In this document: piece by piece, positions 3,054 to 45,976 of the stretch | Position numbering within the stretch: the first letter of the stretch is position 1 | How the letters are laid out: every line of letters starts with the position of its first letter | Source of the DNA: Clostridia bacterium | GTDB lineage: Bacteria > Bacillota > Clostridia > Oscillospirales > CAG-272 | Assembly: GCA_017466445.1 (NCBI GenBank) | Contig: JAFTUC010000029.1 | Span: 248,001-312,000 of the forward strand | Direction of reading: 5' to 3' | Length of the DNA: 64,000 nt | Program-made: the position numbers and the translations under genes | Notes under the pieces: generated by a model | Databases searched by the model: none | What the model was told of the DNA's origin: nothing | The model's input: only the letters and a program-made list of their open reading frames with translations

Positions 3054-3117
3054 GTGGAAAAGGCAAAGAAATTCACCTCTTTTTATGACAAAGTATGCTT
3101 TTTTTCGATTTTTTCGC

Positions 3118-3152: not shown

Positions 3153-3166
3153 CACCGTGATCGTTA

Positions 3167-4663: not shown

Positions 4664-4748
4664 AGGATCCTTCCCCTTTCTCCGATATATCGGGATTTAA
4701 ACGTAGATATTTTTTGTCTCGCGCATATTTTTTATACGCAGACCGGCA

Positions 4749-5633: not shown

Positions 5634-5656
5634 ACTAAAAGTTCGCCCTTTCAAAA

Positions 5657-6379: not shown

Positions 6380-6414
6380 AATTTTTATTCCTTTCAATAT
6401 GATCACAAAACAGA

Positions 6415-8118: not shown

Positions 8119-8157
8119 TTTTATCAAATCCTTTCGAGATCAAGACTGCACAGGACC

Positions 8158-8709: not shown

Positions 8710-8751
8710 ATCTGTATGGCCGTCCTTTCCGTTCCTATTTTCATTCTGAGC

Positions 8752-9438: not shown

Positions 9439-9451
9439 TTCGTTTTATTTT

Positions 9452-9476
9452 CGGGAGACCGCAAGAGGATCTCCCG
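9452..9476. repeat. Intergenic hairpin repeat (copy 1)
   Basis: CGGGAGACC and GGATCTCCCG form an imperfect stem at 9452-9460 and 9467-9476, next to CCCTTCAAAAATTTT. The flank resembles the intergenic hairpins at 46011, 49705 and 54073. It lacks a convincing T-tract on either strand, so it is probably not a simple terminator. Confidence 0.5.
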
Positions 9477-9496
9477 AACCCTTCAAAAATTTTAGA

Positions 9497-10723
9497 TCAA
9501 AGCTCGACGCCGTTGAGCTTAAGAAGCTCTCTTGCGCTTTCGACCGAGTCAACGCCCTCTTTGTTCTTGATAGGCGCAAATTCCTTCTGTCTGTCGACCT
9601 CGAAGGAGAGGCAGGAATCTACCATATGGACCATATCGAGAATAAGGGTCTCAAACTTATATCCGTTAGGCTTTTCGGGCTTTACGAGCTCTGCATTCTC
9701 ATCGATATAGGGGATCTTCTTCTCAACGATATGGAGAGGCATTCTCTTATTGAGATTCGATCTGAGCACCTCAATATTGAACATATAGTTGAGGATAACG
9801 CCGAAGCTGTAGAGAAGCTCGCCGCGCTCGTCGCGAAGATTGATCATATCGTCGGTGATCTCATAGTACTCAACGATCGAGGGCTTACCGTCCTCAAGGC
9901 AAAGAACGCCGATCTTTTCCATAGGCTCCGCCTTGCGTACGACCTTAGCGCCGCTCTGACGTCCGGAGGCGATGGTAGCTCCGACGAATGCAGGGGAGTT
10001 GATCCTCTGGAGAACGTTATCGACCGCAAAAATGGTGAGCCATTCTACACCCTTCTTTTCAAGCTTGTCAACGAGACCCGCCTTTTCGAGCGAGGAGAAC
10101 CATCCGCCGTTTCCGTTAGGCGAGAGCGAGAGCTTGTCCTTGCCCTCCATATAGATCTTTCCGTCGTAATCGACCGAGGGAGCCATATCCTGAACAAAGA
10201 AATCAACGTAGTCCTTGTTGTATCCGAAATAATTCTTCTCCTCGAAGAACTTTACCGTGTCCTCGTTATTCTTCTGGCTGGTCATGATGCAAAGGGGCAT
10301 CCACGCGCCCGTCTGCTTAACGACGTCCATCATGTTATTTATGAGGCACTCGAAGATGTAAAGATCGCGGGTGATACCGACGTTGTACATTCCCTTGGGC
10401 TTGTCGCTTCCGAGACGGGTTCCCTGTCCGCCTGCGAGAAGTACCGCACATACCTTGCCCGCCTTGATAGCCTCGATACCAACCTTTTCAAACTCGTCCT
10501 TACGAGCCTCTATCTCGTCGATCTCAAGAGCGCCGAGAGGAGCGAGCTCGCCTCTGTTTTCTATCTCGTCTCTGTTCTTAAGAATATCGAGAAGCTTCCA
10601 ATCGATATTTGCGATCTGGCTTGCGAGACTTTCTCTCGAATCATCGCTGAGCTCATCCCAATATTTGAGCAGATGAGTCTGTCCATGCTGCTGAAGAAGA
10701 TCATAAAGTTCGCTGTAAGTCAT
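9497..10723 (-). CDS. UDP-sugar pyrophosphorylase (UDPGP family; UTP-glucose-1-P or UDP-GlcNAc type)
   Basis: Nucleotidyltransferase that makes a UDP-sugar and pyrophosphate from UTP and a sugar 1-phosphate. The 408-residue product has the UDPGP signature AVLLAGGQGTRLGSDKPKG (near residue 96) and further family segments LCIMTSQKNNEDT, LSPNGNGGWFSSL and EWLTIFAVDNVL. It resembles eukaryotic-type UDP-GlcNAc pyrophosphorylase rather than GlmU or GalU. A GGAGG site precedes the ATG and a good TTTACA-17-TATACT promoter lies about 50 bases further upstream, so the gene starts its own transcript. The product may be UDP-glucose or UDP-GlcNAc for envelope polymers; the sequence alone does not decide. 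Confidence 0.88.
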   Translation of the reverse strand: MTYSELYDLLQQHGQTHLLKYWDELSDDSRESLASQIANIDWKLLDILKNRDEIENRGELAPLGALEIDEIEARKDEFEKVGIEAIKAGKVCAVLLAGGQGTRLGSDKPKGMYNVGITRDLYIFECLINNMMDVVKQTGAWMPLCIMTSQKNNEDTVKFFEEKNYFGYNKDYVDFFVQDMAPSVDYDGKIYMEGKDKLSLSPNGNGGWFSSLEKAGLVDKLEKKGVEWLTIFAVDNVLQRINSPAFVGATIASGRQSGAKVVRKAEPMEKIGVLCLEDGKPSIVEYYEITDDMINLRDERGELLYSFGVILNYMFNIEVLRSNLNKRMPLHIVEKKIPYIDENAELVKPEKPNGYKFETLILDMVHMVDSCLSFEVDRQKEFAPIKNKEGVDSVESARELLKLNGVEL

Positions 10724-10771
10724 TTTGTTAACCTCCGGTCTGACTGAAAAAATTATACTTTTGTACCTTAA

Positions 10772-10800
10772 AGTATATCACACTTTTTTCTCGTTGTAAA
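10772..10800 (-). promoter_or_regulatory. Promoter of the UDP-sugar pyrophosphorylase gene
   Basis: TTTACA (10800-10795), a 17-base spacer and TATACT (10777-10772), with a TG extended -10. The last 13 bases of the spacer before its final base, AGAAAAAAGTGTG, are identical to those of the promoter at 15122-15150. Confidence 0.8.
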
Positions 10801-10872
10801 GAGAAAATATGGAACAATATAAACTTTTTTACATTTATTTTTTGAATATTTTTCATAAAGAGGCAAAGGACG

Positions 10873-10917
10873 AAAAAAAGAAGACCCTCGACAGGGCTTA
10901 CCGAGCCGAGGATCTTC
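10873..10917 (-). terminator. Terminator downstream of the transglutaminase-like operon
   Basis: Stem GAAGACCCTCG (10880-10890) with CGAGGATCTTC (10907-10917), one mismatch. On the minus strand it is followed by seven T (10879-10873). The plus strand also has a T run after it, so it could act in both directions. Confidence 0.75.
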
Positions 10918-10922
10918 GTTTT

Positions 10923-11606
10923 TTATTCACCACCGAGAGCTCTTACGGTCGCATAGGAATAGCTGTAGCTGACCGTAACGTCCGCTCCGATAGAGTCGGT
11001 ATACAAAAGAGTCGCCTTAAGGAGATCTCCCGTTTCCTTATCGCATTCAAGCGTGCATACCGCCTCATACCCGACAACGCTCTCATCAAGAATCGCCTTA
11101 AGGATCACCACACCGTTTTTTTCGGTGAGCTCAGCGTTCTTAAGCGATCTTTTTTCAAGCTTTATCGGAGAAAAATCGATCGTCACGACCTCCTCGTTCC
11201 AGATAATGGAGCCATCCCTCATCTCACCGACCTTGGAATCCTTATCGGCGTAAAGCGTTCCCGATTCTGTTACGATAAAGCTATCGTCAACGCCCGCTTT
11301 TCCGAGTCTGTCATACTCGTATTCGAGCTTACCTCCGTTTTTTTCGGGATCTCCGAGAGTGAGCTTATATCTGCCGCGAAGAGTGACATCGCCTTTGACG
11401 TATTCAAGCTCGCAAAGATATATATCGGGATCCGAATCGGATATTTTTTTTAGTGTTTCCTCGATCTCATCGGTCTGATCGACCGACTTGCCGCCGTCCC
11501 CCTTTTTGCCTTCCTTTTGAAGAAGAACAACAAGCACGGAAACGAGCAGCACGGTCGCTGCAAGGCAGGATATGATCAGTGCAAGTATTTTCTTATTTTT
11601 AAGCAA
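10923..11606 (-). CDS. Membrane-anchored protein of unknown function
   Basis: A 227-residue protein with one hydrophobic N-terminal segment (about residues 7-30, no lipobox cysteine) followed by a hydrophilic domain rich in beta-strand-like stretches, probably exposed outside the membrane. I do not recognise a family. The start is TTG, chosen because GGGGGGTGAT sits five bases upstream and no ATG fits. It follows the transglutaminase-like surface protein by only 13 bases and is closed by a terminator, so the two form a unit. It may assist or anchor that protein, but this is inference from position only. Confidence 0.7.
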   Translation of the reverse strand: MLKNKKILALIISCLAATVLLVSVLVVLLQKEGKKGDGGKSVDQTDEIEETLKKISDSDPDIYLCELEYVKGDVTLRGRYKLTLGDPEKNGGKLEYEYDRLGKAGVDDSFIVTESGTLYADKDSKVGEMRDGSIIWNEEVVTIDFSPIKLEKRSLKNAELTEKNGVVILKAILDESVVGYEAVCTLECDKETGDLLKATLLYTDSIGADVTVSYSYSYATVRALGGE

Positions 11607-30562: not shown

Positions 30563-33500
30563 ATGTCGGCTACAAAACGTTTTCCAAAAATAATATCGGC
30601 ACCGTTAAGGATCGCTGCCGTATCCGCTCTGCTTATTTCAATGCTTATCTGCTTTGCGTTTGTTACCCACGCAGACTCGGAAGCAAAGGCAAGCTCGGAT
30701 ATCGACATTGAAATGAGCTTTGATAAGGAGGTCTACTCCAAGGGGGACACCGTCATTATAATGCTCGCGGTAACTAACAACACGGGCAAAAAGATCGAAA
30801 ATGTCTCGGCAAGATATTATCTTCCCTCCTGCCTTGAGGTAAGCACTCCCACTACTCTCGATCTCGGGATCATGAATTCAAGGCAGACGGTAAGAACGCA
30901 GATACAGGCAAAGGCCCTCTCTGACATCAGCCGAGATATGATCGAAAACGAGGACGAAAAGGAAAGCAATACCCTCTACATAACTCTGCTCATCATAAGC
31001 GCGGCAGTATTCCTTGTAGCGGTAGTTATCCTTATCTTCCGTGAAAGAAGCAGAAGAAAGGTCGCGGCGGCAATATCTATCTGTCTTGCTATCGTTTTTA
31101 TGATAGCACCTATGGCAAACAGATCGTCCGCGTCGGACACGGTCGTAGCCGACTCGATAGCGTTTTCCGAATGTCAGGACCTTTTTGAGACGCTTGCTCC
31201 CGACACGGTCGACGATCTTCAGAAATATATTACGCACAGCGGAGATCTGACGAGAGAAAAGGCCGCTTTTCTTCTCAGTGTGATGACTCTCGGCGCAAAC
31301 GAGCTCCCGAAGGTGACCTCCGATCCATACACAGACGTCAGTGCGGACTCTGCTTATGCTCCGTTTATCGCCTACAGCGTTGAAAAGGGACTTATCCCGA
31401 GCATTTCGGCAACAAAATTCTATCCCGCAAACAAGGTATCGGGATACGATTTTCTCACCTACACCCTCCGTGCGATCGGTCTTGGCGCAAACGGTGAATA
31501 TCTCGGTCAGAACGGGCGCGCAAACGTGATATACGATGCGCTCAGACTCCCCTTTGCCGAGGCAAGCGAGCTTCTTGAGATCGGAGAAGGCTTCGTAAGC
31601 TGCTCCCGCGCTCTGTCCATTGCAGTAAAGGCGATGACAATTCCATGCGCGGAGCTTTCGCAGACCGGCACCTACACGCTCTCATCTCCCTCGCTTATCA
31701 CGTCGTACGGCAATATAGCTTCAAAAAAAGCGCTCGCAATTGACAAAAACACCCTACTTTGCGACGGCGGAGAGCTTTTAAAGATCTCCTATCGCACGCT
31801 TGACCACCTGTCGTACAACGTATTCTCCTCAGAGAGTCTTGACGATATCATTTCCGGATCCTCTGAAACGGTCGCATCGGCATTTACAAAGCTTTACGTA
31901 AACGGAGAGGAGACCTTTGTCGGTGTCGGAATCCAGCCCTCCGTCTCCTCGCTTTCGGACGCTTACTCGATGAGGATCGGTAATTACAATGAGGACACCC
32001 TTGTTCTGACGTCGGACAACATACATTTCAGAATAGGTCAGGGCGCCCTGAAGGATTGTAAGTATATGCTCGACTCGAGAACTGTCGACGTCTCCGAGAT
32101 CGATTACGAGAAGCCTATAACCGTTATAATAAGATCCTCGGATGAGCTTGTCTCCTTTGAGATAAACGAGATCCTTTACGTATATCAGCTAAGCTCGAAC
32201 GATCCCGCGTCCTACGACGCATACAACGCCGCGCTTCAGTCGGCAAAGGCTATAAAGAACGAGGACTCAAAGATATATCTTCCCTCCGCTTACGATGAAT
32301 TCCTTTCCACTATAGAGGACATTGACGCCTCACTCAGCAAGACTCTTACGGACACGGAGGAGAGCAGAAAGCTCATATCCGACGCAGAGCACGAGATACT
32401 GAACGCTATAGCAAAGCTTTCCGAAAACAAGCTCGTATCCTACGACGCACTTGATGCCGAGATAAAGCTCGCCGAGCCTTACGTTTCAAAGGACGGAAGC
32501 TACACTCCCGAAAGCTTTGAGGTATTCATGCTGGCTTACGAGGAGGCGACCTCGCTTTCAAGAGAGCTTATAATATCGGAGGAAAACGAGGCGCTCGTTT
32601 CCTCGACGGCAGAAAAGCTTAAAAAGGCGGTAGAGGAGCTCGTATTCAGCGACTACTGCGACTATTCTGAGTATCAGGCAGCTCTTGACAGCGCTCTTGC
32701 GATAAAGAACGACAACGGAAAATTCACTGACAAGAACTTCAAAAAGTTCACCGATGCCGTAAACGCAGTCAAGAAGGATCTTGCCACCGACCTTCCGAGA
32801 AACGAAGAGAATCAGAAAAAGGTCGATGATGCCGCAAAGAAGATAAAGGACGCGATAGCAGATCTCAACGCCACTCTTCCCTGCGACTATTCCGCACTTG
32901 ACAGTGCTCTTGCGCAGGCAAGCAATATAAACAACGATAATTTCCAGTGGACCTCCGGAAGCTTTGCCGAATTCACCGAGGCTCTCACCGCCGCAAAGGC
33001 GATAAAGAGGAATATGACCGTCGGATACGGAAGCACCAATCAGTCGCAGATAAACAGTGCCGCATCCTTCCTGCGCTCGGCAATATCCACTCTTACCCAA
33101 AATTCTCTTTGCGATTACAAGGAGTTTAACAAGGCGCTCGAGGCTGCCAGGGCTGTTACAAATAACGAAGGCACGTATGATGCAGCGGCATTCGGTGCAT
33201 ATCTTGAAACTGTTGATTATATAGACGAAAATCTTGACAAAGCACTGTTCAAGGCATCGGTAAACGAAGCGAAGATCACGCAGGCGATCAAGGATCTTGA
33301 AGCGGCAAAGGCAAGGCTTGAAGAAACGGACGAGTCTGTTCTCATGTGCGATATGAACGCGCTTCTTGAGATCCTCGCAAGCGCAGATTCCCTTTCGGAC
33401 GAGGATCTTATGAAGTTCTCGGCAAGGACAGTGGACGCGTTCAAGAAGGCAAAATCTGCCGCAAACGCGCTTGTTGAAGGCGGACTTCTCGCAAACGACA

Positions 33501-35383
33501 TTTTCGGCTTCAACCAGAAGAAGATCGACGACACTGCGAAGGCTCTTAAGGATGCTATGGACTCACTCGCAGTAGAGGAGATATTTACAACTCAGGTAGT
33601 TGATATACTTAAAGAAAGCAAGGACGGCGACGAAAAGACCTATAAAATCACACTTCTCTATCGCGCACAGGGAGAGGATGCAAGCAAGGCGACCGAGTTT
33701 ACGGTCTCCGAGGATATTGCCAAGGCTCTCGCAAGCGCAAAGATCGGAGACGTTCTGTACGTGACTACCGAGGACGGTATGATCGTCTCCGCAAGCATAA
33801 TAATCCCCGAGGTCAAGACTCTTACACAGGACACCGATCTCAGCGGATATGCAACGAGCTACTTCCTTTCATATGAGGAATACATTCCCGAGATCGGTGG
33901 ACTTGCCGTCTTCTTTATAAGCCCCGACGGCGAGATCCTCTTTGTGACCGAGCCGAGGACAGAAGCGTTTGAGGTCACCGTCAAGGACGGTGTTTACACC
34001 GTAAACGGCGAGGATCTCATTCTCGCAGACGACTCTGTCTTTGACGGGATCGAGGACGGTACTCCCTGCGAGCTGACATTCGGAGGAATATATCTGTGCA
34101 GGGTCGAGGCGCTGACCGCACTTGAAGAAGACGTCTCGCTCGACACAAACGAAAACGCAGTTTACAAAAAGGACGGGGAGCCGACCGTGATCGAGCCGTC
34201 TGCCCTTGATTTCACAAAGGCAAACGAAAGCGAGCTTATCATTATGAGCGAGCTTATCTCCGCACTTAAAAAGAACGATGCGCCGTATGCGTACACCGCT
34301 ACTCTCTGGCTTGACTCGAAGGGCGCTCTCGTAGCCTGCAAGCTTCTCGGTCCGGTCGAGGACGACGGCAGCGATGCGGAGATCGTTGATCAGACCTATT
34401 ATTTTTCAAACGACAGCGACGTCGATAATTTCAAAATACACGGAAGGACCACTCCGCTTGCGGAGGGTATCGCCTGCGACACCTCCGCGTCGGGCGTCGA
34501 GTTCAACGCTTATATTGAGGGCGAGCTCAAGATCCGGCTTTCCGTATCCCAAAATTGCTATTTTACCCTTTACATTGACGGTGAAAGAGTCGAGGAGCGC
34601 ATAAACAGACTTCCCGCAGACAACGGCAAGGAATTCGTTCTTGCCTCCTTCAGTGACAAGAAGGTACACAACATAAGGCTCCTCAAGCAGACCGAGGCGC
34701 AGTGCGCTCTCAGCGTTTTACAAAGCATCTCCTTTAAGGGATATTTCGAGGCACCCCCGGAAGACAAGGAGCTCCTTATCGAGGTCCTCGGTGACAGTAT
34801 TACGGTAGGATTTGGAAATCTTTGCGAGCGCGACACTCCAGATTCGGGCTCCGCTCCCTATCAGGACGCGACACAGACCTACGGATTCCTCGCCGCTGAA
34901 AAGCTGAACGCTGACGTTTCGCTCGTTTGCTACAGCGGAATCGGTGTTTCGATCGGTTGGCCGACCTTCCTTATGGAGGAGTATTTCAAGGCGGACTCTT
35001 ACTTAAGAGACAAAAACACCGAGTTTGTCGCGACGAGAACTCCCGACGTAGTAGTCATCAACCTCGGAACGAACGATCAGATGAAGGGAATCGACATCCA
35101 GAAGCTCAAGACCAAGGTCAAGGCTCTTGTCGATCTCGTTCGTGAGACCTACAAAACGAAGATCCCGATCGTCTGGATGCACGGAATGATGGAAAAGGCA
35201 AGCCTTGACAAGTTTAACACCGTATTTAACGAGCTTTACAAGGATGCCGATCAAAGTCTCGTTTACTTTTTCCAGGTCGCGCAGGAAAATCAGGGCGGCG
35301 GCGGACATCCCAGCCTTGACGCGCACTACGACGTAGGTGAAGAGCTCGCCACCTATCTTGAGGAAAATATTCTTAACAAATGA
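30563..35383 (+). CDS. Large multidomain surface protein with FIVAR-like repeats and a C-terminal SGNH esterase
   Basis: A 1606-residue envelope protein. In order: signal-peptide-like helix (about 15-37); a CARDB/DUF11-like beta domain (45-125); two closely spaced transmembrane helices (about 139-163 and 167-186) split by RERSRRK; SLH-like segments (205-385, for example DPYTDVSADSAYAPFIAYSV); about five FIVAR-like three-helix repeats (540-880; repeated pattern YxAL-D-ALA then NDN-x-F); beta-rich region; jelly roll like the CE2 N-terminal domain (about 1290-1400); and an SGNH hydrolase with GDSIT near 1410, NLGTND near 1502 and GHPSLDAH near 1580. The triad looks intact, so it probably deacetylates a polysaccharide. 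AAGGAG precedes the ATG. Single gene between its own promoter and terminator. Confidence 0.85.
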   Translation: MSATKRFPKIISAPLRIAAVSALLISMLICFAFVTHADSEAKASSDIDIEMSFDKEVYSKGDTVIIMLAVTNNTGKKIENVSARYYLPSCLEVSTPTTLDLGIMNSRQTVRTQIQAKALSDISRDMIENEDEKESNTLYITLLIISAAVFLVAVVILIFRERSRRKVAAAISICLAIVFMIAPMANRSSASDTVVADSIAFSECQDLFETLAPDTVDDLQKYITHSGDLTREKAAFLLSVMTLGANELPKVTSDPYTDVSADSAYAPFIAYSVEKGLIPSISATKFYPANKVSGYDFLTYTLRAIGLGANGEYLGQNGRANVIYDALRLPFAEASELLEIGEGFVSCSRALSIAVKAMTIPCAELSQTGTYTLSSPSLITSYGNIASKKALAIDKNTLLCDGGELLKISYRTLDHLSYNVFSSESLDDIISGSSETVASAFTKLYVNGEETFVGVGIQPSVSSLSDAYSMRIGNYNEDTLVLTSDNIHFRIGQGALKDCKYMLDSRTVDVSEIDYEKPITVIIRSSDELVSFEINEILYVYQLSSNDPASYDAYNAALQSAKAIKNEDSKIYLPSAYDEFLSTIEDIDASLSKTLTDTEESRKLISDAEHEILNAIAKLSENKLVSYDALDAEIKLAEPYVSKDGSYTPESFEVFMLAYEEATSLSRELIISEENEALVSSTAEKLKKAVEELVFSDYCDYSEYQAALDSALAIKNDNGKFTDKNFKKFTDAVNAVKKDLATDLPRNEENQKKVDDAAKKIKDAIADLNATLPCDYSALDSALAQASNINNDNFQWTSGSFAEFTEALTAAKAIKRNMTVGYGSTNQSQINSAASFLRSAISTLTQNSLCDYKEFNKALEAARAVTNNEGTYDAAAFGAYLETVDYIDENLDKALFKASVNEAKITQAIKDLEAAKARLEETDESVLMCDMNALLEILASADSLSDEDLMKFSARTVDAFKKAKSAANALVEGGLLANDIFGFNQKKIDDTAKALKDAMDSLAVEEIFTTQVVDILKESKDGDEKTYKITLLYRAQGEDASKATEFTVSEDIAKALASAKIGDVLYVTTEDGMIVSASIIIPEVKTLTQDTDLSGYATSYFLSYEEYIPEIGGLAVFFISPDGEILFVTEPRTEAFEVTVKDGVYTVNGEDLILADDSVFDGIEDGTPCELTFGGIYLCRVEALTALEEDVSLDTNENAVYKKDGEPTVIEPSALDFTKANESELIIMSELISALKKNDAPYAYTATLWLDSKGALVACKLLGPVEDDGSDAEIVDQTYYFSNDSDVDNFKIHGRTTPLAEGIACDTSASGVEFNAYIEGELKIRLSVSQNCYFTLYIDGERVEERINRLPADNGKEFVLASFSDKKVHNIRLLKQTEAQCALSVLQSISFKGYFEAPPEDKELLIEVLGDSITVGFGNLCERDTPDSGSAPYQDATQTYGFLAAEKLNADVSLVCYSGIGVSIGWPTFLMEEYFKADSYLRDKNTEFVATRTPDVVVINLGTNDQMKGIDIQKLKTKVKALVDLVRETYKTKIPIVWMHGMMEKASLDKFNTVFNELYKDADQSLVYFFQVAQENQGGGGHPSLDAHYDVGEELATYLEENILNK

Positions 35384-36310: not shown

Positions 36311-37525
36311 TTATTTGAGCGCGACCTTATCGGCGAGCTTTTCATAGAGCTTTGTAAGCTTAAGCTGTCGCTCGAGCGATTCTATGTCGATACGCTCGGT
36401 GAACTCCTCGATGTCGTTTATGCCGTAGTAATATTTATAGTACCAGCTATTAGTCTCCCAATCGGCGGCGATAGCGTCAGAGACCTCTTTTTCGGTAACG
36501 CTTACCTCGCACAGACCGAAAATATAGTTATCCTTGATATAGGAATACGCCGAGCTCACCGCCTGAGGATAAAGAAGGTCGTGCATACTGCTTTTTATCT
36601 CGGAATAAGCCTTATTATAATCTTCCTTGCTGAGCGACGAGCCGTTTTGAGAAAGCACATGACTATGAATAAGTCGGTCGAGATAGATATCAACAAGCTC
36701 CTTGCATGGCTCTTTTTCCTTGGTATCGACAACGAACATCGAATAGGCAAACGAGCCTACGCAAATATTCTCAAGATAGGTCCTGAACTCGTCGAGAGTT
36801 TTATACTTTCCATCGGTATATTTATCGCACTGCTCGTCGGTAGGAACAAAGCTGTCGGTCTTCGGTCTTGAGATCGATATAAGCTTTACCGTGAAATCGA
36901 CCTCGATGCCGCACAGCTCCTCGGTAGTATAAAGATCGGGGAAGGTGACTCTTATAACCCTTTCGTCTCCAACGCTCATTCCGATAAGCTGATCCTCGAA
37001 GCCCTCGTTATATCGGTCCTCGTGCTTTCCCTTATATGCACCTATAAAGGATCCCGACCCGATAACGAGATCGACACCGTCCTTCTGATATTCGCTCGAC
37101 ATTCCCGCAATAGTCTCCTCGGAAAGCTCGATATTCTCATCAGCGGGAAGACCCTTGTAGGATATACGCGCGGTATCGTAAAGCGAAAGAGTCGCGCTTC
37201 CCTTTTCGGTATAAGATGTATTTTCAGCTCCGCTCATTACCGCCTTTGCGAGCTCGTACGAAACGCTGACGTTAACATCGCTCTTATTTATCACGATCTC
37301 ACTGAGTGCGGGTGGATCTATATGATCAAGAGGGTCGTAGACAACGTCCGAAAGACTTCCGAATATCTTTTCAAAGGTCTTGTCCTCTTCTTTATTGCCA
37401 TTTCCGTTTTCCTTCTCGCTCTCCTTCCTTTTACCGTTTCCCGAGCATGCGGCAAGCGTGCCGAGCAAAAGGGCAAGCATCGAAAGGATCGCAACAGATC
37501 TTACTAAAACACTTCTAAACTTCAT
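36311..37525 (-). CDS. Lipoprotein with trigger-factor-like FKBP peptidyl-prolyl isomerase domain
   Basis: A 404-residue lipoprotein: signal peptide with lipobox LAAC and lipidated Cys27, then a Lys/Glu/Asn-rich linker. Residues about 110-225 match the FKBP-type domain of trigger factor (GFEDQLIGMSVGDERVIRVT, then FPDLYTTEELCGIEVDFTV). The rest is helical, like the trigger factor C-terminal chaperone region. There is no ribosome-binding N-domain. It is probably an extracytoplasmic folding factor on the outer face of the membrane, analogous in place to PrsA but built from a trigger-factor core. GGAG lies five bases before the ATG. It lies 24 bases downstream of the P-type ATPase homologue. Confidence 0.85.
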   Translation of the reverse strand: MKFRSVLVRSVAILSMLALLLGTLAACSGNGKRKESEKENGNGNKEEDKTFEKIFGSLSDVVYDPLDHIDPPALSEIVINKSDVNVSVSYELAKAVMSGAENTSYTEKGSATLSLYDTARISYKGLPADENIELSEETIAGMSSEYQKDGVDLVIGSGSFIGAYKGKHEDRYNEGFEDQLIGMSVGDERVIRVTFPDLYTTEELCGIEVDFTVKLISISRPKTDSFVPTDEQCDKYTDGKYKTLDEFRTYLENICVGSFAYSMFVVDTKEKEPCKELVDIYLDRLIHSHVLSQNGSSLSKEDYNKAYSEIKSSMHDLLYPQAVSSAYSYIKDNYIFGLCEVSVTEKEVSDAIAADWETNSWYYKYYYGINDIEEFTERIDIESLERQLKLTKLYEKLADKVALK

Positions 37526-37549: not shown

Positions 37550-40324
37550 TTATATATCTTTGTTCTGACCTTTTTTATGTTTTCCTCTTTTTTTGAAAAA
37601 TCCGAGCGCTCTCGCAAGCACCGAGGACAAAAGAAGAGAAAGTATTGGGCTCAGAATTACCGGCACGAGCATTTTTGGGGAGATCGCAGAAGAGGGATCC
37701 TCCGTCAGCACCGATGTGAATCTTCCCATCACGCACGAAAGTATTACGAATACGGCGACCCCCACTAAATAGAGAAGCTGTATTCTGTTCACCTTCAGCT
37801 CTGCTCCCGCTTGTTTTCCGCTGAATATACTGTGAAGCATCACCGATGCGGAAAGCACAGCAAAGGAGAGAAAGACGCACGATGAGAGAGAGCTCGGGTC
37901 AGTAAGACCGATCAGCTCAAGGACTACGCAGAAAAGAGGAACGAGCACACCGCAAAAGGCTCCTTTTTCTATGCATTTTACCGATGTCTTTATTATTCCC
38001 GATTCAGAGACGTCTCTCTGCTTCTCGATATGTATCCTCGTACTCGGATGCCTGAACGCCATTATGAGGGCTGCGACAAAATCAAACACGAGTCCGAGAA
38101 CGAGTATCGACATCGGACTCAGAAGAAATCTTCCGAGCAAAAGGAAGAGCATCACCGCACTTAGACGGGCGCTCTGCACCGTCATAAGATATTCGAGCAT
38201 CCTGATTATATTTCCGTTTATATTTTTCGCATTTCCGATGGCTCCGAGCACCGCGTTAAGACCGCCCGAAGGAGTATCGTCCACCATTGTAACCACCGCA
38301 TCCGAAACGAACCTGAGTGCCTCGCAGCCGTCGTACTGTGTTTTTTCTCTGTCAGAGCCTGTAAGACTAAGGCATTCGGTCATGCCGATATCAGCCTCTC
38401 TGAGAAGCGGAAGCTCGCGGAGCTTGTTTCCGAGAAAGGCGACCTTACGTCCGCTCTTTTGGAGCGTCTTTATCGCGATCTCCCTATCCGAAACGCTCAT
38501 TCCCTCGAGCATAGAGATCCCCTTCAGTCTTTCCTCAAGCGCCGTGCCGTCTGCCGACGCGAGCTCACGGATCTCTTTTCCTTTTATGACCTCGTCACGC
38601 GAGAGCACCATTCCGATCGCTCTCGCTATCTGATAATTCTTTTCGCTTATCTCGTCGCACGCAAGGATTATCTTTATCCCCGCGGCACGCGCTCTTGCGA
38701 TATTTTGCGCCACCTCGGGCAGTATTGGCTCATTGAGGACTATAAAGCCCTCGAAGATGAGCTCATTCTGACTATCCCTCAGCTTTGTAAGAGTATTGAA
38801 GCGTGAATGCTTGGAGGCAATCGCTATTACTCTGTACGCCTGACGCATAAGCTGCTTTGCCGCGACGTCTATCTTACTGCGCTCTACCGGTCCCAGGCGC
38901 AGAACTCTGCCGTTTTCATAATAGTGCGTGCAGCACTCAAGTATCTCATCCGCCTCGCCTCGCAAAATAACCGTGTTATCTCCGTTAAAGCGAACGAGTG
39001 CCGTATCAAACCTGTTTATCTCGCTCCGTCTTTTGAAATCGACGAGAGGATATTCCTCTTCAAGCGATGAGTTATAAATTCCGCAGTCGAGCGATGCCTT
39101 AAGGATAGCATCCTCCTCAAAGGTATAGAAATCCCCCGAGTCCTGTCCGACCGCGCCGAGCTTATTTTGCCCGTAAAGACCTGTCGTTACTATTGCGTAT
39201 CTTAAAAGCCGCAAGCAGTTATCAGCGAACCCCTTTTCGCTGATGTCGTAAAGCTTTCCCGAAACGTACGCGCGCTCAAGCGACATACGGCGCTTTGAGC
39301 ATATGGCCTCGGGCGGGACGATGACCGTATCGATATTTTCAAGAGTATCCAGCCTGTCCGCGTTTTTGATAAGCGCACCTTTTTTATTTCTGCGCTTTCG
39401 GCTGAGCGAATCGAAAAGTCCGCACGCCACTATGACGTATCCGAGCAGCATAAAAAACTCGGAAAGTCCCGCAACTCCGATCGAAAGAGATATGAGAAGC
39501 GTATTTAGCGGATCTCCTCCGCTGAAGATGGGAAGCAGTCCGACAAACGAGATCACAAATGCCGACGCAAGATAAAAGAGACTTATCCTTCTGCCGATCC
39601 GCTTCAGCGTATCGAACACGGCAAGCTTATGGTATTCGGCGGCAGGCTTATTCTTGTTCGTGCGACAAACGAGCGTATTTTTGCCCAGCTCGCACGCAAT
39701 CGCGAGCCCGCTTCCCTTTGTGACGATGGTAGACGCCCACGCCATATTAAAGCACATGTGCGGAGGAACGTTTCTGTATTCCACAAAATCGCTCGTCTTT
39801 TTTATACTTCCAACTCCGTCGGTTATTCCCGTTTCAAGTATGTAAAGTCCTTTATCACTGACAATACGGGCATCGCACGGAACGATATCACCCTCGGACA
39901 GCAGGATAAGATCGCCGAACACGATCTCGTCCTGCTTTACGTTATAAACACGTCCGCCTCTTATGACCTTTATATTAGGAAGAGAGCTCCGCGCCGCGTG
40001 TTCAAGAAGAAGACGCGCACTGCAGTAGGTGATAAACATTACGGCGTAGCTGAGGGCTATAAGCGACGCGGAAACGATCGCCGTAACGTAGTGTCCAAAG
40101 AAAAGGGCGACGAGTGACGTAAGCATGAGAAGTATTCCGAGTCCGTTAGTCGAAAAATCGGAGATACAGTCCCTTACCGATCTGTGTTCTATAGGAAAAA
40201 CGTCGTTTTTTCCGTTTTTTTCAAGTCTCTCGCGCGCAAGAGCCTTTTCGAGACCGAGCTCCGAGCTGCTTTTTGTAAGCTCCTCAACCTCAGAGACGGT
40301 TTTATCATGCCAACGCTCCGCCAT
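37550..40324 (-). CDS. P-type ATPase homologue lacking all catalytic motifs (pseudoenzyme)
   Basis: A 924-residue protein with the domain plan and length of P2-type cation ATPases: cation-ATPase N-terminal segment, two helices, actuator domain, two helices, P- and N-domains, six C-terminal helices. The motifs that define activity are missing. TGES is replaced by TGITDG (165-170); PEGL in helix 4 by SEFF (288-291); the DKTGT phosphorylation site by PPEAICS (337-343), with no Asp; DPPR by NEPI; TGD by ACDE; and GDGxND by LGNKLRE (631-637). The fold markers around them remain (KGAxE-like LRGEADEILECC, LREADIGM). The reading frame is uninterrupted, so this is not ordinary decay. It cannot transport by the known mechanism; a regulatory, scaffold or scramblase-like role is possible. 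Confidence 0.88.
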   Translation of the reverse strand: MAERWHDKTVSEVEELTKSSSELGLEKALARERLEKNGKNDVFPIEHRSVRDCISDFSTNGLGILLMLTSLVALFFGHYVTAIVSASLIALSYAVMFITYCSARLLLEHAARSSLPNIKVIRGGRVYNVKQDEIVFGDLILLSEGDIVPCDARIVSDKGLYILETGITDGVGSIKKTSDFVEYRNVPPHMCFNMAWASTIVTKGSGLAIACELGKNTLVCRTNKNKPAAEYHKLAVFDTLKRIGRRISLFYLASAFVISFVGLLPIFSGGDPLNTLLISLSIGVAGLSEFFMLLGYVIVACGLFDSLSRKRRNKKGALIKNADRLDTLENIDTVIVPPEAICSKRRMSLERAYVSGKLYDISEKGFADNCLRLLRYAIVTTGLYGQNKLGAVGQDSGDFYTFEEDAILKASLDCGIYNSSLEEEYPLVDFKRRSEINRFDTALVRFNGDNTVILRGEADEILECCTHYYENGRVLRLGPVERSKIDVAAKQLMRQAYRVIAIASKHSRFNTLTKLRDSQNELIFEGFIVLNEPILPEVAQNIARARAAGIKIILACDEISEKNYQIARAIGMVLSRDEVIKGKEIRELASADGTALEERLKGISMLEGMSVSDREIAIKTLQKSGRKVAFLGNKLRELPLLREADIGMTECLSLTGSDREKTQYDGCEALRFVSDAVVTMVDDTPSGGLNAVLGAIGNAKNINGNIIRMLEYLMTVQSARLSAVMLFLLLGRFLLSPMSILVLGLVFDFVAALIMAFRHPSTRIHIEKQRDVSESGIIKTSVKCIEKGAFCGVLVPLFCVVLELIGLTDPSSLSSCVFLSFAVLSASVMLHSIFSGKQAGAELKVNRIQLLYLVGVAVFVILSCVMGRFTSVLTEDPSSAISPKMLVPVILSPILSLLLSSVLARALGFFKKRGKHKKGQNKDI

Positions 40325-40365: not shown

Positions 40366-42654
40366 TCAATTGCACATAATAATGAGATCGTCGTCCCTTG
40401 CATCCATGCTGATCACCGATATATTTCTGTCGTAATCGCCTATCAGCTTGCTTGCAAGAACGTCCTCCACCTCGCGCTGTATGGTACGTCTCAGATTTCT
40501 CGCACCGTACTTACGGGAGAAGGATCTCCTTGCGATCGTTCTCACTGCCGCTTCGGTGTAACCGAGCTTTATCTCCTTTTCGGAGAGAGTTTTTACGAGA
40601 TCTCCGAGCATTATCTTTGCGATCTCGACGAAATCGTCCTCGTCAAGTGATCTGAAGGTGATTATTTCGTCGACTCTGTTTATAAACTCGGGTCTCAGGA
40701 ACTGAGACAGCGCCTTTTCGGTCTTTCCCTCGGACGTCGCCCTGCCCTCGTCGGAAAATCCGAGAGGAGCATCGACTCCGACCGCTCCCGCGTTCGTTGT
40801 CATGACTATGACCGTATTTTCAAAATTGACCTTTTTGCCTCTCGCGTCGGTGATATACCCGTCATCGAGTATCTGAAGGAGGATATTCATAACGTCGGGA
40901 TGCGCCTTCTCGATCTCGTCGAAAAGTATGACCGAATAGGGCTTACGGCGGATCTTCTCGGTAAGCTGACCCGCATCGTCGTATCCGACGTATCCGGGAG
41001 GCGCTCCGATGATCCTCGACACCGCATGCTTTTCCATAAACTCGGACATATCGAGGCGTATAAGAGTTTCGGGCGAATCGAAAAGATCGGACGCGAGCAG
41101 CTTGACGAGCTCGGTCTTACCGACTCCCGTAGGTCCTGCGAATATAAAGGATACCGGCTTGCGCTTATACGCTATTCCGGCGCGGTTACGCTTGATCGCT
41201 CTCGCAACGGCATCGACCGCCTCGTCCTGACCTATGAGCCTCTCCTTAAGTCTGTCGGCAAGCTTGTCGACACGTCTGAACTCGTTTTCGGTAATATTAC
41301 TTGCCGGAATACCCGTCCAGAGCTCTACCACGCTCGCAAGCTGAGAGGTGGTAAGAACGACCGAGCTTCTTGCGAGCTCAGCCTCCTGCGCTTCCCTTTC
41401 AGCGGAGATGAGAGCGGTCTTGATTTCTGCCACTCTGCGGTATTTTTCGTTTATCTCCTCTTCCGGAACCTCTTTAGCCTCCTCGAGCTCCGCTTCCTTT
41501 TTAAGTCGCTCAAGCTCTGCGCTTGCCTTTTCGGCGCGCGCTATCTCGGGTGAGTGGAGTGCGAGATAGGAGGATGCCTCATCAAGAAGGTCTATCGCCT
41601 TATCGGGAAGGAATCTGTCGGTTATATATCTCTCGGAGAGCATTACCGTACGCTCTATGACTATATCGGGAATAGTTATGCCGTGGAAGCTTTCGTAATA
41701 TCCCTTTATACCTCTCAGTATCTCGATACTGTCGGCGATAGAGGGCTCCTCTACGATTATAGGCTGGAAGCGGCGTTCAAGAGCCGAATCCTTTTCTATA
41801 TACTTTCTGTACTCCGCAAGAGTGGTGGCTCCGATGACCTGAACGTCACCTCTGGAAAGCGCAGGCTTCAGAATGTTTGCCGCACTCATGCTTCCCTCGG
41901 AATCTCCCGCTCCGACGATACTGTGTACCTCGTCGATAACGAGTATGACGTTGCCCTTTGCCTTGACCTCCTCAATAAGTCCCTTTATTCTCGACTCAAA
42001 CTGTCCCCTGAACTGCGTACCCGCGACAAGTGCGGTAAGGTCAACGACCCTTACCTCCTTGTCTGCAAGCTTTCCGGGCGCCTTTCCGTCGGCAATAAGC
42101 TGCGCGAGCGCCTCGGCTATCGCCGTCTTGCCGACTCCGGGCTCACCTATAAGGCAGGGATTGTTCTTCTGTCTGCGGCAAAGTATCTGCATCATTCGCT
42201 CCATTTCGTCGTCTCTTCCGACGACTCTGTCGAGCTTTCCTTCTCTTGCCTTTGCGGTTATATCGGTACAGTAGGTATCAAGAAACTGAGTTGAGCTCTT
42301 TGCGCCCTTGCTCTTTTTCTGTTTTCCGTCGCCGCCGCGATCCTTGTTGTCGCTTTTTTCTCCGGAGGCACCGATAGCCCCGAAAAGCTTTGAAAAGTTG
42401 ATGGGAGGAGTTTTTCCCATATCGTCGTCCGATTCATCGTCCGCCTGAGCCTGGATTATCCCCTCCATCTCCATATCCATGCGGTCTATATCCTCATCGG
42501 TTATTCCCATATTTCCGAGAATATTATTGATAGGACCTATTCCGAGCTCCTTTGCACACTTTATACAGATCCCCTCGTTGGTCGTCTTATCTCCCTCCAT
42601 ACGGGATATGAATATTACCGCTACTCTTTTTTTGCATCTTGCACACATTTCCAT
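40366..42654 (-). CDS. ClpE/ClpC-like AAA+ unfoldase with N-terminal zinc finger
   Basis: A 762-residue Hsp100 protein with two AAA+ modules, which unfolds proteins for ClpP or disaggregates them. Instead of the Clp_N repeat domain it starts with a four-cysteine zinc finger (Cys4, Cys7, Cys30, Cys33), as in ClpE, followed by a linker. AAA1 has Walker A GEPGVGKT (170-177) and VILVIDEVHSIVGAG; AAA2 has FAGPTGVGKTELVKLLA and SVILFDEIEKAHPDV. A middle coiled coil separates them. It precedes the P-type ATPase homologue by 42 bases on the same strand. The ribosome binding site is weak; in-frame codon 3 (ATG) is an alternative start. Confidence 0.93.
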   Translation of the reverse strand: MEMCARCKKRVAVIFISRMEGDKTTNEGICIKCAKELGIGPINNILGNMGITDEDIDRMDMEMEGIIQAQADDESDDDMGKTPPINFSKLFGAIGASGEKSDNKDRGGDGKQKKSKGAKSSTQFLDTYCTDITAKAREGKLDRVVGRDDEMERMMQILCRRQKNNPCLIGEPGVGKTAIAEALAQLIADGKAPGKLADKEVRVVDLTALVAGTQFRGQFESRIKGLIEEVKAKGNVILVIDEVHSIVGAGDSEGSMSAANILKPALSRGDVQVIGATTLAEYRKYIEKDSALERRFQPIIVEEPSIADSIEILRGIKGYYESFHGITIPDIVIERTVMLSERYITDRFLPDKAIDLLDEASSYLALHSPEIARAEKASAELERLKKEAELEEAKEVPEEEINEKYRRVAEIKTALISAEREAQEAELARSSVVLTTSQLASVVELWTGIPASNITENEFRRVDKLADRLKERLIGQDEAVDAVARAIKRNRAGIAYKRKPVSFIFAGPTGVGKTELVKLLASDLFDSPETLIRLDMSEFMEKHAVSRIIGAPPGYVGYDDAGQLTEKIRRKPYSVILFDEIEKAHPDVMNILLQILDDGYITDARGKKVNFENTVIVMTTNAGAVGVDAPLGFSDEGRATSEGKTEKALSQFLRPEFINRVDEIITFRSLDEDDFVEIAKIMLGDLVKTLSEKEIKLGYTEAAVRTIARRSFSRKYGARNLRRTIQREVEDVLASKLIGDYDRNISVISMDARDDDLIIMCN

Positions 42655-42728: not shown

Positions 42729-43247
42729 TCAGAGCCCGAAGATTCCGAGTCCGTAGAACCATCTTGTGACGGTCATGGATTCCGCTATAGAACCGATCTG
42801 AGGAGCAATAGCAGACAGTACGGTAAGAATCAGGCAGATAACTACAGAGAGAACGTATGCCCACGCAAGTCCGAGAAGAAGACCGATGACCGCGCCGAGT
42901 ATCTTGTCAAGCTTATCGGCTACGGGGATCTTTATGTTCTTGAGAAGCTTCTTTACGATACCTACAACGATCGACATTACAAGGAAGATGAGCACGAAAG
43001 CGATCATTCTTGCCGCCTTGCCCGAAACAACGAGGTCATAAACGAAGCCCGATCCGCCTGAGGGAAGCATTTCCGCTATCGACTTTCCGATCGTTCTTCC
43101 GAGAACGGGGGAGAGTATCCAAGAAAAGATGACTGCCACAAGGAAGCCCGCGATATCGAGCACTGCGCCGGTAAGTCCTTTTCTGAGGTACCTCACAACG
43201 TTCAAAACTATAATTACAAGTATTATGATGTCAAATATAAATCCCAT
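42729..43247 (-). CDS. CvpA family membrane protein (tandem copy 2)
   Basis: A 172-residue protein with four hydrophobic helices, of the colicin V production protein (CvpA) family. It begins MGFIFDIIILVIIVLNVVRY and ends SMTVTRWFYGLGIFGL. The last 16 residues are identical to those of the neighbouring paralogue at 43301, and the N-termini are nearly so, which marks a tandem duplication. Function of CvpA proteins in Clostridia is not settled; in Proteobacteria they affect envelope homeostasis and colicin export. It lies 53 bases downstream of its paralogue and 74 bases upstream of the ClpE-like gene. Confidence 0.85.
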   Translation of the reverse strand: MGFIFDIIILVIIVLNVVRYLRKGLTGAVLDIAGFLVAVIFSWILSPVLGRTIGKSIAEMLPSGGSGFVYDLVVSGKAARMIAFVLIFLVMSIVVGIVKKLLKNIKIPVADKLDKILGAVIGLLLGLAWAYVLSVVICLILTVLSAIAPQIGSIAESMTVTRWFYGLGIFGL

Positions 43248-43300
43248 TTCTTTTCCTTTACCTTTCTTTTTTGGTTAAAATATTTATGTGCAGTGTGCAA

Positions 43301-43780
43301 TTAGAGTCCAAAGATTCCGAGTCCGTAGAACCATCTTGTAACGGTCATAGAATCGGTAAGAGATCTGAGCTGAGGAACCACGGCTGATATAATTGTAAGC
43401 AGTACGAAAATAAGTACCGAAGCAACGTACGCCCACGCAAATCCGAGAAGAAGTCCGAAAGCTCCTCCGAGTATCTTATCCACTTTTGAGATTATAGGTA
43501 GCTTTATGCTTTTTGCAAGCCTCTTTATACCCGAAACCACAAAGGTCATCGCAACAAAAATTATGATAAACGCGATTATCCTCATAATATCGTCCGAGCC
43601 GTCAGAGCGTAGGATCTTGCCTATAAGCTTACCGAGATATGGAGAAAATACCCACGCGGATATAACCGAAAGCAAAAATCCCGCGATATCAAGCACGACG
43701 CTCATCAGACCTCTTTTGGCATATTTCAGAACGTTCAGTACTATGATCAGTAAAACGATTATATCAAATATAAATCCCAT
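43301..43780 (-). CDS. CvpA family membrane protein (tandem copy 1)
   Basis: A 159-residue four-helix membrane protein of the CvpA family, paralogous to the gene at 42729. It is shorter in the middle loop: the paralogue has an additional segment (LPSGGSGFVYDLVVSGKA) where this copy has RSDGSDDI. Both keep the LDKILG or VDKILG core and the identical C-terminal 16 residues. It follows the DUF5711 gene by 41 bases. Confidence 0.85.
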   Translation of the reverse strand: MGFIFDIIVLLIIVLNVLKYAKRGLMSVVLDIAGFLLSVISAWVFSPYLGKLIGKILRSDGSDDIMRIIAFIIIFVAMTFVVSGIKRLAKSIKLPIISKVDKILGGAFGLLLGFAWAYVASVLIFVLLTIISAVVPQLRSLTDSMTVTRWFYGLGIFGL

Positions 43781-43821: not shown

Positions 43822-45177
43822 TCATTTCATCTCTGTTTTTTTGATAGAAGTAGCAAAGCAAGCGTAGGTCTCATCCGACATTTCAATAAAATACTTGAGC
43901 TTTTCAGACGAATTATAGACCTTTTTATCCTTTCCGCTACTCATATTCACAGAGACCGCAGAGCTCTCGGTAATAATATACGCCGTCTCCTTCGATATAT
44001 TCAAGCCCACGAGTCCTCCGTCGACAGAAAGATCGAAGCTTTTTACGCTATTTTCGCTCATCAGCACCGTATGCACCGAAAATCTTTCCGAATTATCGAC
44101 AATTCTTTTCGCATAGACGAGCGCGCCCGTATCAGAAAGCTTATACATATGCATATCGCCGCAGTCGAGCGCACGGCTTGAAACGGTCTTTCCGTTTGCA
44201 TCAACAAGAGTCAGAAAGTCCTCAAAAAGGATCACTATATTGCCGTTATCGAGATATCTGCACTCTATAGGAAATCCTTCTTCAAGGTTTATTATCTTTT
44301 TCGGAGCGTCACTTTCGGTATCAAGTATCATAAGCTCGCTCTCGACCCTTCCGTCATATGTGACCGAATAGGTGAGCAGAGCGATTTCTCCCGTTTTTCC
44401 GTTCATATCCATAGACGCGACTCGGTTATTCTTTTTTATGAGATTACGCACCTTCATATCGGGTGTGTACACCTTTATTTCGCTGGTATAATCGTTTCCG
44501 TGTCTCGCCACCGCAAAGCTTCCGCTATCCGAGACGGTAGCAGAGTATATCGCATTTCCTTCCTTTTCGGTATACTTCACACCGAGGCTATCGTAGACAC
44601 CGAATGAATTTCCCGCGCGATCGTAAATGATCGCATAATCTCCCGAGGTTTCGAGCTTCGGAAGTGAATATATCGATTCATCCGAATACTGATGCGTTCC
44701 GTCGGGCGCAAAGATCACCACTCTGTCGCTTCCCGCAATTATCGGAGTGCCTGAAAGCGAGCCGAACGAAGCGTTCTCATTTATGCTGAAGTAGTACTCC
44801 GAGACTCCGTTTTGGGTCTCGCCGCGACCGAGCATATCGCGAAACGCGCGCTGCATACTTATCGTTGTTATTTTATCTCCGAAAAAGGTAAGAAAGAGCA
44901 CGACGAACAAAGTAAGAGCTACCCAGAGTACGCTTGATACCGTTCCGAAGCGATCAGACTGTTTTTTCGCATATGCATCAACTATCGGTCGGTCGTCGGT
45001 ATTTTCCTGTCGCTCGTTTTTCTTCGTTCCCTTAAAAAGAAGCTTGAAAACGCTCTGCTTTTTTTCATTTTCCTCCGAGTCTGCGATCTTTTTTATATCT
45101 ATAAATCCGTCGCTCTCGGGCTCGTGCATATTCAGCTTCTTATCGTCGAACGAATATTTTTTTCTTTTATTACTCAA
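43822..45177 (-). CDS. DUF5711 family membrane-anchored beta-propeller-like protein
   Basis: A product of about 451 residues: basic/acidic cytoplasmic N-terminus (about 1-100), one transmembrane helix (SSVLWVALTLFVVLFLTFFG, about 105-125), then an extracytoplasmic domain with repeated short beta blades (for example VVIFAPDGTHQYSDESIYSL, NSFGVYDSLGVKY, SGSFAVARHGNDY), as in WD40-like propellers. I recognise it as DUF5711. The start is uncertain: TTG at 45177 overlaps the truA stop (TTGAGTAA), with AGGAGG about 13 bases upstream; an in-frame ATG at 45129 lacks a clear site. Context with cvpA and clp genes suggests an envelope role. Confidence 0.75.
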   Translation of the reverse strand: MSNKRKKYSFDDKKLNMHEPESDGFIDIKKIADSEENEKKQSVFKLLFKGTKKNERQENTDDRPIVDAYAKKQSDRFGTVSSVLWVALTLFVVLFLTFFGDKITTISMQRAFRDMLGRGETQNGVSEYYFSINENASFGSLSGTPIIAGSDRVVIFAPDGTHQYSDESIYSLPKLETSGDYAIIYDRAGNSFGVYDSLGVKYTEKEGNAIYSATVSDSGSFAVARHGNDYTSEIKVYTPDMKVRNLIKKNNRVASMDMNGKTGEIALLTYSVTYDGRVESELMILDTESDAPKKIINLEEGFPIECRYLDNGNIVILFEDFLTLVDANGKTVSSRALDCGDMHMYKLSDTGALVYAKRIVDNSERFSVHTVLMSENSVKSFDLSVDGGLVGLNISKETAYIITESSAVSVNMSSGKDKKVYNSSEKLKYFIEMSDETYACFATSIKKTEMK

Positions 45178-45976
45178 GGTCGGAGTCGCACCTCCTCTCG
45201 CATCCGACGTAGTCGGGCGAAAATACCCTTTCGGGATAGACGACCCTCGTAAGACAAAGCCCGTCGGGCGGAAGCGTAGCACCTGCTCTGCTTCTGTCTC
45301 GTGACTCTATAATGGTTGCTATCTCATCTTCCTTTATTCGTCCCTCTGAAAGCGCGATGAGCGTTCCGCACAGGATCCTTACCATATTATAGAGGAAGCC
45401 GTCTGCCGCGACCCTCATGATAACAAGATCTCCCTTTCGACGAACGTCGAAGTACTTTACAGTTCGCACCGTGCTTGTGACCGACGATCCCTGTGCCATA
45501 AACGATGCAAAATCATGCGTCCCGACAAATCCTTTTGCCGCCCTATCCATAGCCTCAACGTCGAGCGCCTTCGGATAATGATAAGCCTTACCGAAAAGGA
45601 AGGGATCGGAAAGCCTCGTATTCAAAACAGTATATTCGTATTCCTTATAGTCTACGTCATATCTTGGATGAAACGCATCGCCAACGTATCTGGCACTCCT
45701 TACAGAGATATCTCCCGGCAGAAATGCCGCCGCCGCGATCGGGATCTTATCCTCGGGAACGCTTCTTTCGCTGACATCATCCGCCGTGCAAAAGAACTGT
45801 CTTGCGTGTACTCCCGCGTCTGTACGGCTACATCCGCTGAGGCGGTATCTTTCTCCGAAAAGCTTTTCAAGAGACTCCTGAAGCGTTCCCTGGACCGTGC
45901 GGATATCTCTTCCGCTTTGTATCTGATATCCGTGATACGCCGTACCTACGTACGATATCTCAAAAAGTATCTTCAT
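45170..45976 (-). CDS. truA: tRNA pseudouridine(38-40) synthase TruA
   Basis: Converts uridines 38-40 of the tRNA anticodon stem-loop into pseudouridine. The 268-residue product has the catalytic Asp in GCSRTDAGVHARQF and family segments YVGTAYHGYQIQ and FLYNMVRILCGTLIALSEGR. It lies downstream of ecfT in the order ecfA1-ecfA2-ecfT-truA that is common in Bacillota, separated here by a 175-base intergenic region filled with local repeats. Confidence 0.96.
   Translation of the reverse strand: MKILFEISYVGTAYHGYQIQSGRDIRTVQGTLQESLEKLFGERYRLSGCSRTDAGVHARQFFCTADDVSERSVPEDKIPIAAAAFLPGDISVRSARYVGDAFHPRYDVDYKEYEYTVLNTRLSDPFLFGKAYHYPKALDVEAMDRAAKGFVGTHDFASFMAQGSSVTSTVRTVKYFDVRRKGDLVIMRVAADGFLYNMVRILCGTLIALSEGRIKEDEIATIIESRDRSRAGATLPPDGLCLTRVVYPERVFSPDYVGCERRCDSDLE

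Follow-up and report, generated by a model that had tools for sequence, protein, structure and literature searches.

A conserved P-type ATPase homologue without catalytic motifs, encoded directly after a clp gene in Clostridia

The DNA analyzed here, called the window throughout, is a 64,000-nucleotide stretch from a Clostridia bacterium (assembly GCA_017466445.1, contig JAFTUC010000029.1, positions 248,001 to 312,000). On its minus strand, directly after a gene for a Clp-type unfoldase (clp), lies a frame of 924 codons (37550..40324) that begins with an ATG at 40324, ends with a stop codon finishing at 37550 and has zero internal stops; a AAGGAAAGGGG stretch precedes the ATG by about 12 nt. 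The 924-residue product is laid out like a P-type ATPase, a textbook class of enzymes whose defining feature is a phosphorylated aspartate. The hydropathy profile of the product has ten peaks, marking ten segments with P-type spacing. The Pfam models E1-E2_ATPase (PF00122; E = 3.5e-16, 59.7 bits for a cut-off of 28.1) and Cation_ATPase_N (E = 6.2e-6) match it above their gathering cut-offs, and its closest match in the PDB is the Listeria Ca2+-ATPase LMCA1 (E = 1.8e-35, residues 19-833). The top curated family is the PMR1-type Ca2+-ATPase (TIGR01522), with a score of 173.2 bits that is below the cut-off of 798.3. An earlier note made from the letters of this DNA had described, without naming a strand, an intact 924-codon frame with a P-type layout, and this is borne out by the open reading frame (ORF), the Pfam and LMCA1 matches and the hydropathy profile. 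Judging from its sequence, the protein is almost certainly a conserved non-catalytic P-type pseudo-ATPase, or pseudo-pump.

The motifs that carry the catalytic roles in P-type ATPases are named DKTGT, TGES, PEGL, KGA, DPPR, TGD and GDGxND, and the rules by which we read them hold in 18/18 comparison pumps from related bacteria. In the alignment of the window protein, the TGES site of the A (actuator) domain reads TDGV (residues 168-171, 39812..39823), the PEGL site SEFF (288-291), the phospho-acceptor DKTGT site PPEAICS (337-343, 39296..39316), the KGA site RGE (455-457), the DPPR site EPIL (532-535), the TGD site CDE (556-558) and the GDGxND site GNKLRE (632-637, 38414..38431), all on the minus strand. 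The replacement of TGES, PEGL, DKTGT, DPPR, TGD and GDGxND, with PPEAICS at 337-343, is thus seen as the earlier note had read it. Its wider statement that every motif is lost holds for catalysis, but not for three acids that survive: Glu289 of the fourth membrane segment (M4), an ion-site acid retained within SEFF (39458..39460), the ion-site acid Asp748 of M6 (38081..38083) and Asp645 of the ADIG motif. The M5 ion-site position is Arg720 (38165..38167; all three codons on the minus strand). Compared with the P2A Ca2+-ATPases (PMR1 type, TIGR01522; LMCA1, PDB 6zhf), the window protein has the same domain order, A-domain scaffold and ten hydrophobic segments, and shares the M4 acid and the M6 Asp; unlike them, it lacks DKTGT, TGES, KGA, DPPR, TGD and GDGxND and falls below the family cut-off. 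With no acceptor Asp, no dephosphorylation Glu and no hinge/Mg-site motif, the phosphorylation cycle should be impossible, and the protein would be unable to pump.

A decaying pseudogene or a sequencing artefact could also lack these motifs, and beyond the motif loss nothing was found that favors such an explanation. A first search covered 59 genomes, the window's own and 58 relatives. Orthologues 63-65% identical to the window protein were present in 3/3 other genomes of the same genus (by their records two Oscillospiraceae metagenome-assembled genomes (MAGs) and one Clostridia MAG), with weaker matches in other parts of the family. Among 29 relatives aligned with the window protein, 17 are without DKTGT and 12 have it. 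The same motif losses were found in separate assemblies, and the window genome encodes three other P-type ATPases in which DKTGT and GDGxND are kept.

The ClpE-like neighbor gene served as a marker for choosing loci independently of the motif-loss finding. A Clp match at 1e-100 was obtained in 114/118 family genomes, and the downstream DNA was examined for 80 of these 114; among the other 34, 20 were already sampled and 14 were omitted (contig edges, or partial or weaker Clp matches). The 80 loci, together with 22 loci matching the window protein and the window, form a set of 103, which omits L059, L060, L062 and L063 (where catalytic pumps lie apart from clp) and L054 (where a contig end truncates the pseudo-pump and clp is out of view). 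Taking more than 50 bits against a 16-sequence profile as a P-type-like call, these first-family loci have after clp a P-type-like protein in 76 cases, another ORF in 22 and none in 5, 3 of which are explained by the contig end. The pseudo-pump lies directly after clp in 53/80 loci chosen by Clp alone, and PF00122 matches 53/53 aligned pseudo-pump members at E up to 0.01.

Copies are also present in 27/41 genomes of a second family from this order, with DKTGT or GDGxND in none; clp is directly upstream in 26/27, and the 27th copy is near a contig start. Outside the first family, 40 clp loci of the order were examined, 7 of which have a pseudo-pump, distributed as 3/4 in the second family, 4/5 in a third and 0/31 in the remaining families (four of these 31, L149, L155, L160 and L179, have less than 2 kb after clp). 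DKTGT was not found in the protein read after clp in any second-family or other-family set. Therefore, from the second- and third-family clp loci, the three families share both the position and the losses. Beyond the order, the window protein as a query in 291 genomes of the class gave 33 matches besides its own (E up to 1e-52), which belong without exception to other orders, and the 9 that were read all keep DKTGT and GDGxND. A third-family copy gave no match in the 291 genomes at 1e-60, in a search that had no positive control. The profile score is no guide to further families, since it does not separate catalytic pumps from distant pseudo-pumps, the former scoring just as high.

The non-redundant set comprises 106 pseudo-pumps (75 from the first family, 27 from the second and 4 from the third), three of which are cut by contig ends so that their motifs are partly unreadable (L058, L095 and L210). 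Orthologues retaining DKTGT or GDGxND, which the earlier note held would point to decay, were looked for: the 3/3 same-genus copies are without both, and each motif is found in 0/106 members overall. The invariant letters of GDGxND are kept in 18/18 pumps. Glu stands in the aligned TGES column in 9/106 members, and the lone TGES string among them (L053) is near residue 547, away from the A-domain site. The Pro of the M4 motif is found in 18/18 pumps versus 3/106 members. In no row of the 106 do the acceptor Asp position and the leading Asp position of GDGxND both show the pump letter. Counted over seven key catalytic letters, the members keep 0, 1, 2, 3 or 4 in 18, 32, 32, 23 and 1 rows, respectively, and the 18 pumps keep all seven.

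Selection was estimated as the ratio of nonsynonymous to synonymous substitution rates (dN/dS; Nei-Gojobori) in 49 close pairs, 37 with finite dS and the other 12 saturated. The ratio is 0.061-0.276 in the 37 pairs, 15 of which have dS below 1.3; pairs including the window protein are near saturation, so that their values of 0.106-0.145 are rough. The former P (phosphorylation) domain gives 0.03-0.12 (10 pairs) and M5-M10 0.09-0.21. Purifying selection thus acts on the pseudo-pump, former catalytic head included. In 71 first-family rows, the A domain is the best-kept part (mean identity 0.36, or 0.357 unrounded), and the steepest drop in identity relative to the pumps is at the DKTGT segment (0.23 against 0.72). 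A dN/dS near 1, another sign of decay according to the earlier note, was also looked for, and 0.06-0.28 was found instead in the 37 computable pairs. With long open frames in the 106 members (the three cut by contig ends among them), dN/dS far below 1, the same losses in separate assemblies and catalytic pumps in the same genome, decay and sequencing error are ruled out for practical purposes, and the probability that we would still grant them is negligible. The argument of the earlier note that length kept despite motif loss points to a selected non-catalytic function is supported by the shared losses and the low dN/dS. Because selection keeps a motif-less pump shape across related bacteria, the pseudo-pump probably has a new membrane function other than pumping.

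In a tree of 101 pseudo-pumps and 18 catalytic proteins, one branch divides the two sets with 100% support in the Shimodaira-Hasegawa-like approximate likelihood ratio test (SH-aLRT), and the same split is obtained with 40 pseudo-pumps and 27 catalytic proteins under a mixture model with the motif columns removed; both trees are quick searches with some long branches, and pump types outside the sample could alter the picture. The three families form their own groups inside the pseudo-pump set, which fits vertical descent. Mapping the occurrence of the pseudo-pump onto the Clp tree takes 17 changes, versus 46 in shuffles; this pattern fits an old gene lost many times, without proving it.

The product of the gene directly upstream (40366..42654, minus strand) is a ClpE/ClpC-like AAA+ unfoldase of 762 residues, as judged from Pfam and motifs, with an N-terminal Cys4 motif, both Walker A motifs and an LGF loop. 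We take its Gly-Phe loop to be the docking loop for ClpP; the loop Phe is present in 81/83 Clp loci with a pseudo-pump and in 58/60 without. The linkage to clp is constant where the pseudo-pump is present (two contig-end copies, L054 and L204, cannot show it), with a median gap of 25 bp between the two genes and overlapping frames in 7/76 loci. As the sole constant close neighbor, with its coding sequence packed tightly against that of the pseudo-pump, Clp is the likeliest partner. Selection may be preserving what is left of the helices and soluble domains as a membrane scaffold, and the pseudo-pump may dock or regulate the co-encoded unfoldase at the membrane, for example by presenting membrane or membrane-bound clients to Clp/ClpP. 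That this P2-type pseudo-pump encoded after clp serves the Clp unfoldase as a scaffold or adaptor in the membrane is a tentative proposal, which we hold at best with slightly less belief than doubt and whose Clp part is drawn from gene order. If physical, the stable pairing with a ClpE-like unfoldase would be a new route by which an AAA+ unfoldase is brought to the membrane.

The genes run in the order ABC (ATP-binding cassette) ATPase, ABC ATPase, CbiQ (ecfA-ecfA-ecfT by context), truA, DUF5711, cvpA, clp and pseudo-pump. The protein could instead be a lone structural or lipid-organizing membrane protein whose place beside clp reflects nothing more than an old, stable block. The truA-DUF5711-cvpA-clp block is indeed stable without the pseudo-pump, and the separate grouping of the three families on the tree is as in vertical descent. 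However, all three families hold the position immediately after clp, overlapping frames included, while the genes that follow the pseudo-pump vary between loci (by eye), and we consider this explanation unlikely. A role in regulating a catalytic P2 pump of the same cell, for instance as an inhibitory or stabilizing pseudo-subunit, can also be envisaged, since catalytic P-type ATPases are encoded in the window genome and, at locus L042 (genome G010), a catalytic P2 pump with DKTGT and GDGxND (5384-8170, plus strand) is convergent with the pseudo-pump (8319-11114, minus strand). Among the loci laid out gene by gene, however, L042 alone has an adjoining pump and the constant neighbor is Clp, which makes a pump partnership very improbable.

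The ion pocket differs between the families. The M4 acid (Glu or Asp) is kept in 89/106 members. The M5 position is basic in 68/106 (Arg in 63, Lys in 5); in 27 catalytic pumps it is Glu in 22, Gly or Ala in 5 and Arg in 0. The M6 Asp accompanies the basic M5 residue in 68/68 rows and is found in 0 of 35 others with letters there; this M6 position is Asn in 26/106 members. The combination of basic M5 and M6 Asp occurs in 68/73 first-family rows with letters, versus 0/30 in the second and third families. Each of the two traits undergoes four changes on the tree, and all four independent pairs agree. In the first family, the M5 Arg/Lys and M6 Asp are consistent with a buried salt bridge that would close the pocket. 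P3A proton pumps of plants and fungi, which keep their catalytic motifs, presumably have Arg and Asp at the same two pocket positions (AHA2 R655/D684). A Glu-Arg-Asp triad common to all pseudo-pumps had been suggested by the first 76 rows and was dropped when the wider set limited it to the first family.

These residues bear on another possibility, namely that the protein, without catalysis, senses ions, protons or voltage or offers a passive route for ions; the retained acids would bind an ion or proton, and shape changes would pass through the A domain to a partner. The M4 acid in 89/106 and the M6 Asp in 68/106 members were kept while the catalytic motifs vanished, and the A domain is the best-kept part. 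On the other hand, the basic M5 residue of the same 68 rows would repel cations, column 744 (M6 Asn in all 18 pumps) is Gly in 93/106, the M6 Asp has given way to Asn in 26/106 and the tree shows 8 changes of the M4 acid, so that a sensor or ion path appears distinctly unlikely. As for the Clp adaptor, its fullest form, a P2 pump turned membrane-embedded adaptor with a pocket locked by Arg and Asp in one family and a body that would act as a docking platform linking the state of the membrane to regulated unfolding or proteolysis, must be considered doubtful.

Several observations weigh against the proposed non-catalytic Clp adaptor and its locked pocket. Gene order is the whole basis for the Clp partnership. 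The upstream block stands without the pseudo-pump, since at 20 clp loci lacking it (10 from its own family and 10 from other families) TruA, DUF5711 and CvpA were each found in 17. Clp likewise occurs without it in the 22/103 loci with another ORF (L136 among them), and 2 further loci of the 103 have DNA after clp with no ORF of at least 150 residues. A comparison of Clp at 75 versus 27 loci found no residue that sharply tracks the pseudo-pump (best 0.65 versus 0.19). No second- or third-family copy has a basic M5 residue, and most have the M6 Asn; the sign test for the M5/M6 coupling gives p = 0.125, four pairs being too few for significance. Finally, the acceptor column is Asp in 8/106 rows, five of which read Asp-Lys, with Asp-Lys-Thr in one of these five. 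The five Asp-Lys copies, from one second-family genus, lack both the TGES Glu and the leading Asp of GDGxND, and are perhaps relics of the ancestral motif. They are L200, L201, L202, L203 and L206, from four g172 genomes and one matching the same pattern.

Enzyme folds selected without their catalytic residues are familiar from pseudokinases and iRhoms, and we know of no P-type pseudoenzyme in bacteria. Pseudoenzymes as such are familiar, and the novelty here lies in a variant that is bacterial, P-type, free-standing and linked to clp. A search of open-access full text, with subscription papers mostly outside it, found no bacterial P-type pseudo-ATPase in print, which is a weak negative. The nearest printed precedent found is Plasmodium PfGC-beta, whose P4-ATPase domain is described as degenerate, with most signature residues unidentifiable (PMC6592433). 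Because this domain is in print, P-type pseudo-domains are not wholly unknown. Unlike the window protein, which is free-standing, bacterial, P2-like and set in a Clp block, the PfGC-beta domain is eukaryotic, of P4 type and belongs to a guanylate cyclase. The P4-ATPase domain of PfGC-alpha resembles the window protein in having a P-type layout beside another activity and differs in keeping the acceptor Asp; its authors take the domain as catalytically active (PMC7858053). The suggestion of the earlier note that a conserved pseudo-ATPase in Bacillota would be undescribed therefore stands in that no bacterial case was found, and is tempered by the degenerate P4 domain printed for PfGC-beta. A free-standing bacterial family selected without catalytic motifs offers a testable case of the pump body's own abilities. 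It should also be noted that domain-based annotation could label pseudo-pumps as cation-transporting ATPases, and models of such bacteria would then include spurious pumps.

Several members are reduced or extended. The nucleotide-binding (N) domain is absent in 4 rows, requiring 3 changes on the tree, with some of these rows on long branches. The L108/L109 pair, which is without the N domain, is itself under selection, with a dN/dS of 0.146 overall and a higher 0.51 in what few N-domain codons remain. L118 stops shortly past M6. L136, one of the 22 loci with another ORF, is a strongly reduced member (E = 7.1e-22 among 22 sequences, filters off); its 701-residue ORF (2316-4418, plus strand) has no A-domain match and no Pfam match, and its frame overlaps the end of clp. 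At L093 (genome G122), a repetitive ORF of 945 residues (2446-5283, plus strand) follows clp, in the place that the pseudo-pump has in relatives. C-terminal tails were inspected in ten members and seven were scanned (L043, L052, L066, L067, L074, L084 and L130), in none of which a clear Pfam domain was found in the long tail; L074 has a weak match to a lipoteichoic-acid factor (3.2e-6, 26 bits versus a 300-bit cut-off). The same-genus pseudo-pumps L084 (2466-6158) and L130 (669-4463) have C-terminal tails of more than 300 residues, of low complexity by eye.

The other neighbors in the window are also on the minus strand. Upstream of clp are genes for a CvpA-like membrane protein (42729..43247; PF02674), a second CvpA-like protein (43301..43780; BLASTP to the same relatives as the first), a DUF5711 protein (43822..45282; PF18975) and a TruA-like tRNA pseudouridine synthase (45170..45976; PF01416). 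The window has these two adjacent CvpA-like genes (42729-43780) versus one in the same-genus loci L037 and L039. A ParB-like nature of the upstream genes was ruled out by Pfam, which identifies ABC ATPases, CbiQ and TruA. Downstream of the pseudo-pump, 36311..37525 encodes a lipoprotein with a trigger-factor/FKBP-type domain (TIGR00115, 7.6e-16; lipobox by eye). The earlier note had placed the pseudo-pump between a ClpE-like unfoldase and a folding-factor lipoprotein; the former neighbor is confirmed and conserved, but the latter directly follows the pseudo-pump in only 2/4 same-genus genomes, leaving a conserved lipoprotein partnership unsupported. At L044 (genome G015), a second Clp-like AAA+ gene (198-2444, minus strand) is located about 3 kb downstream of the pseudo-pump. 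Further along the window, 30563-35383 (plus strand) encodes a protein of 1606 residues with a weak S-layer-like match, CE2_N and a C-terminal GDSL esterase domain; the three same-genus genomes have homologues of it nearby, of which two are truncated where the sampled DNA ends.

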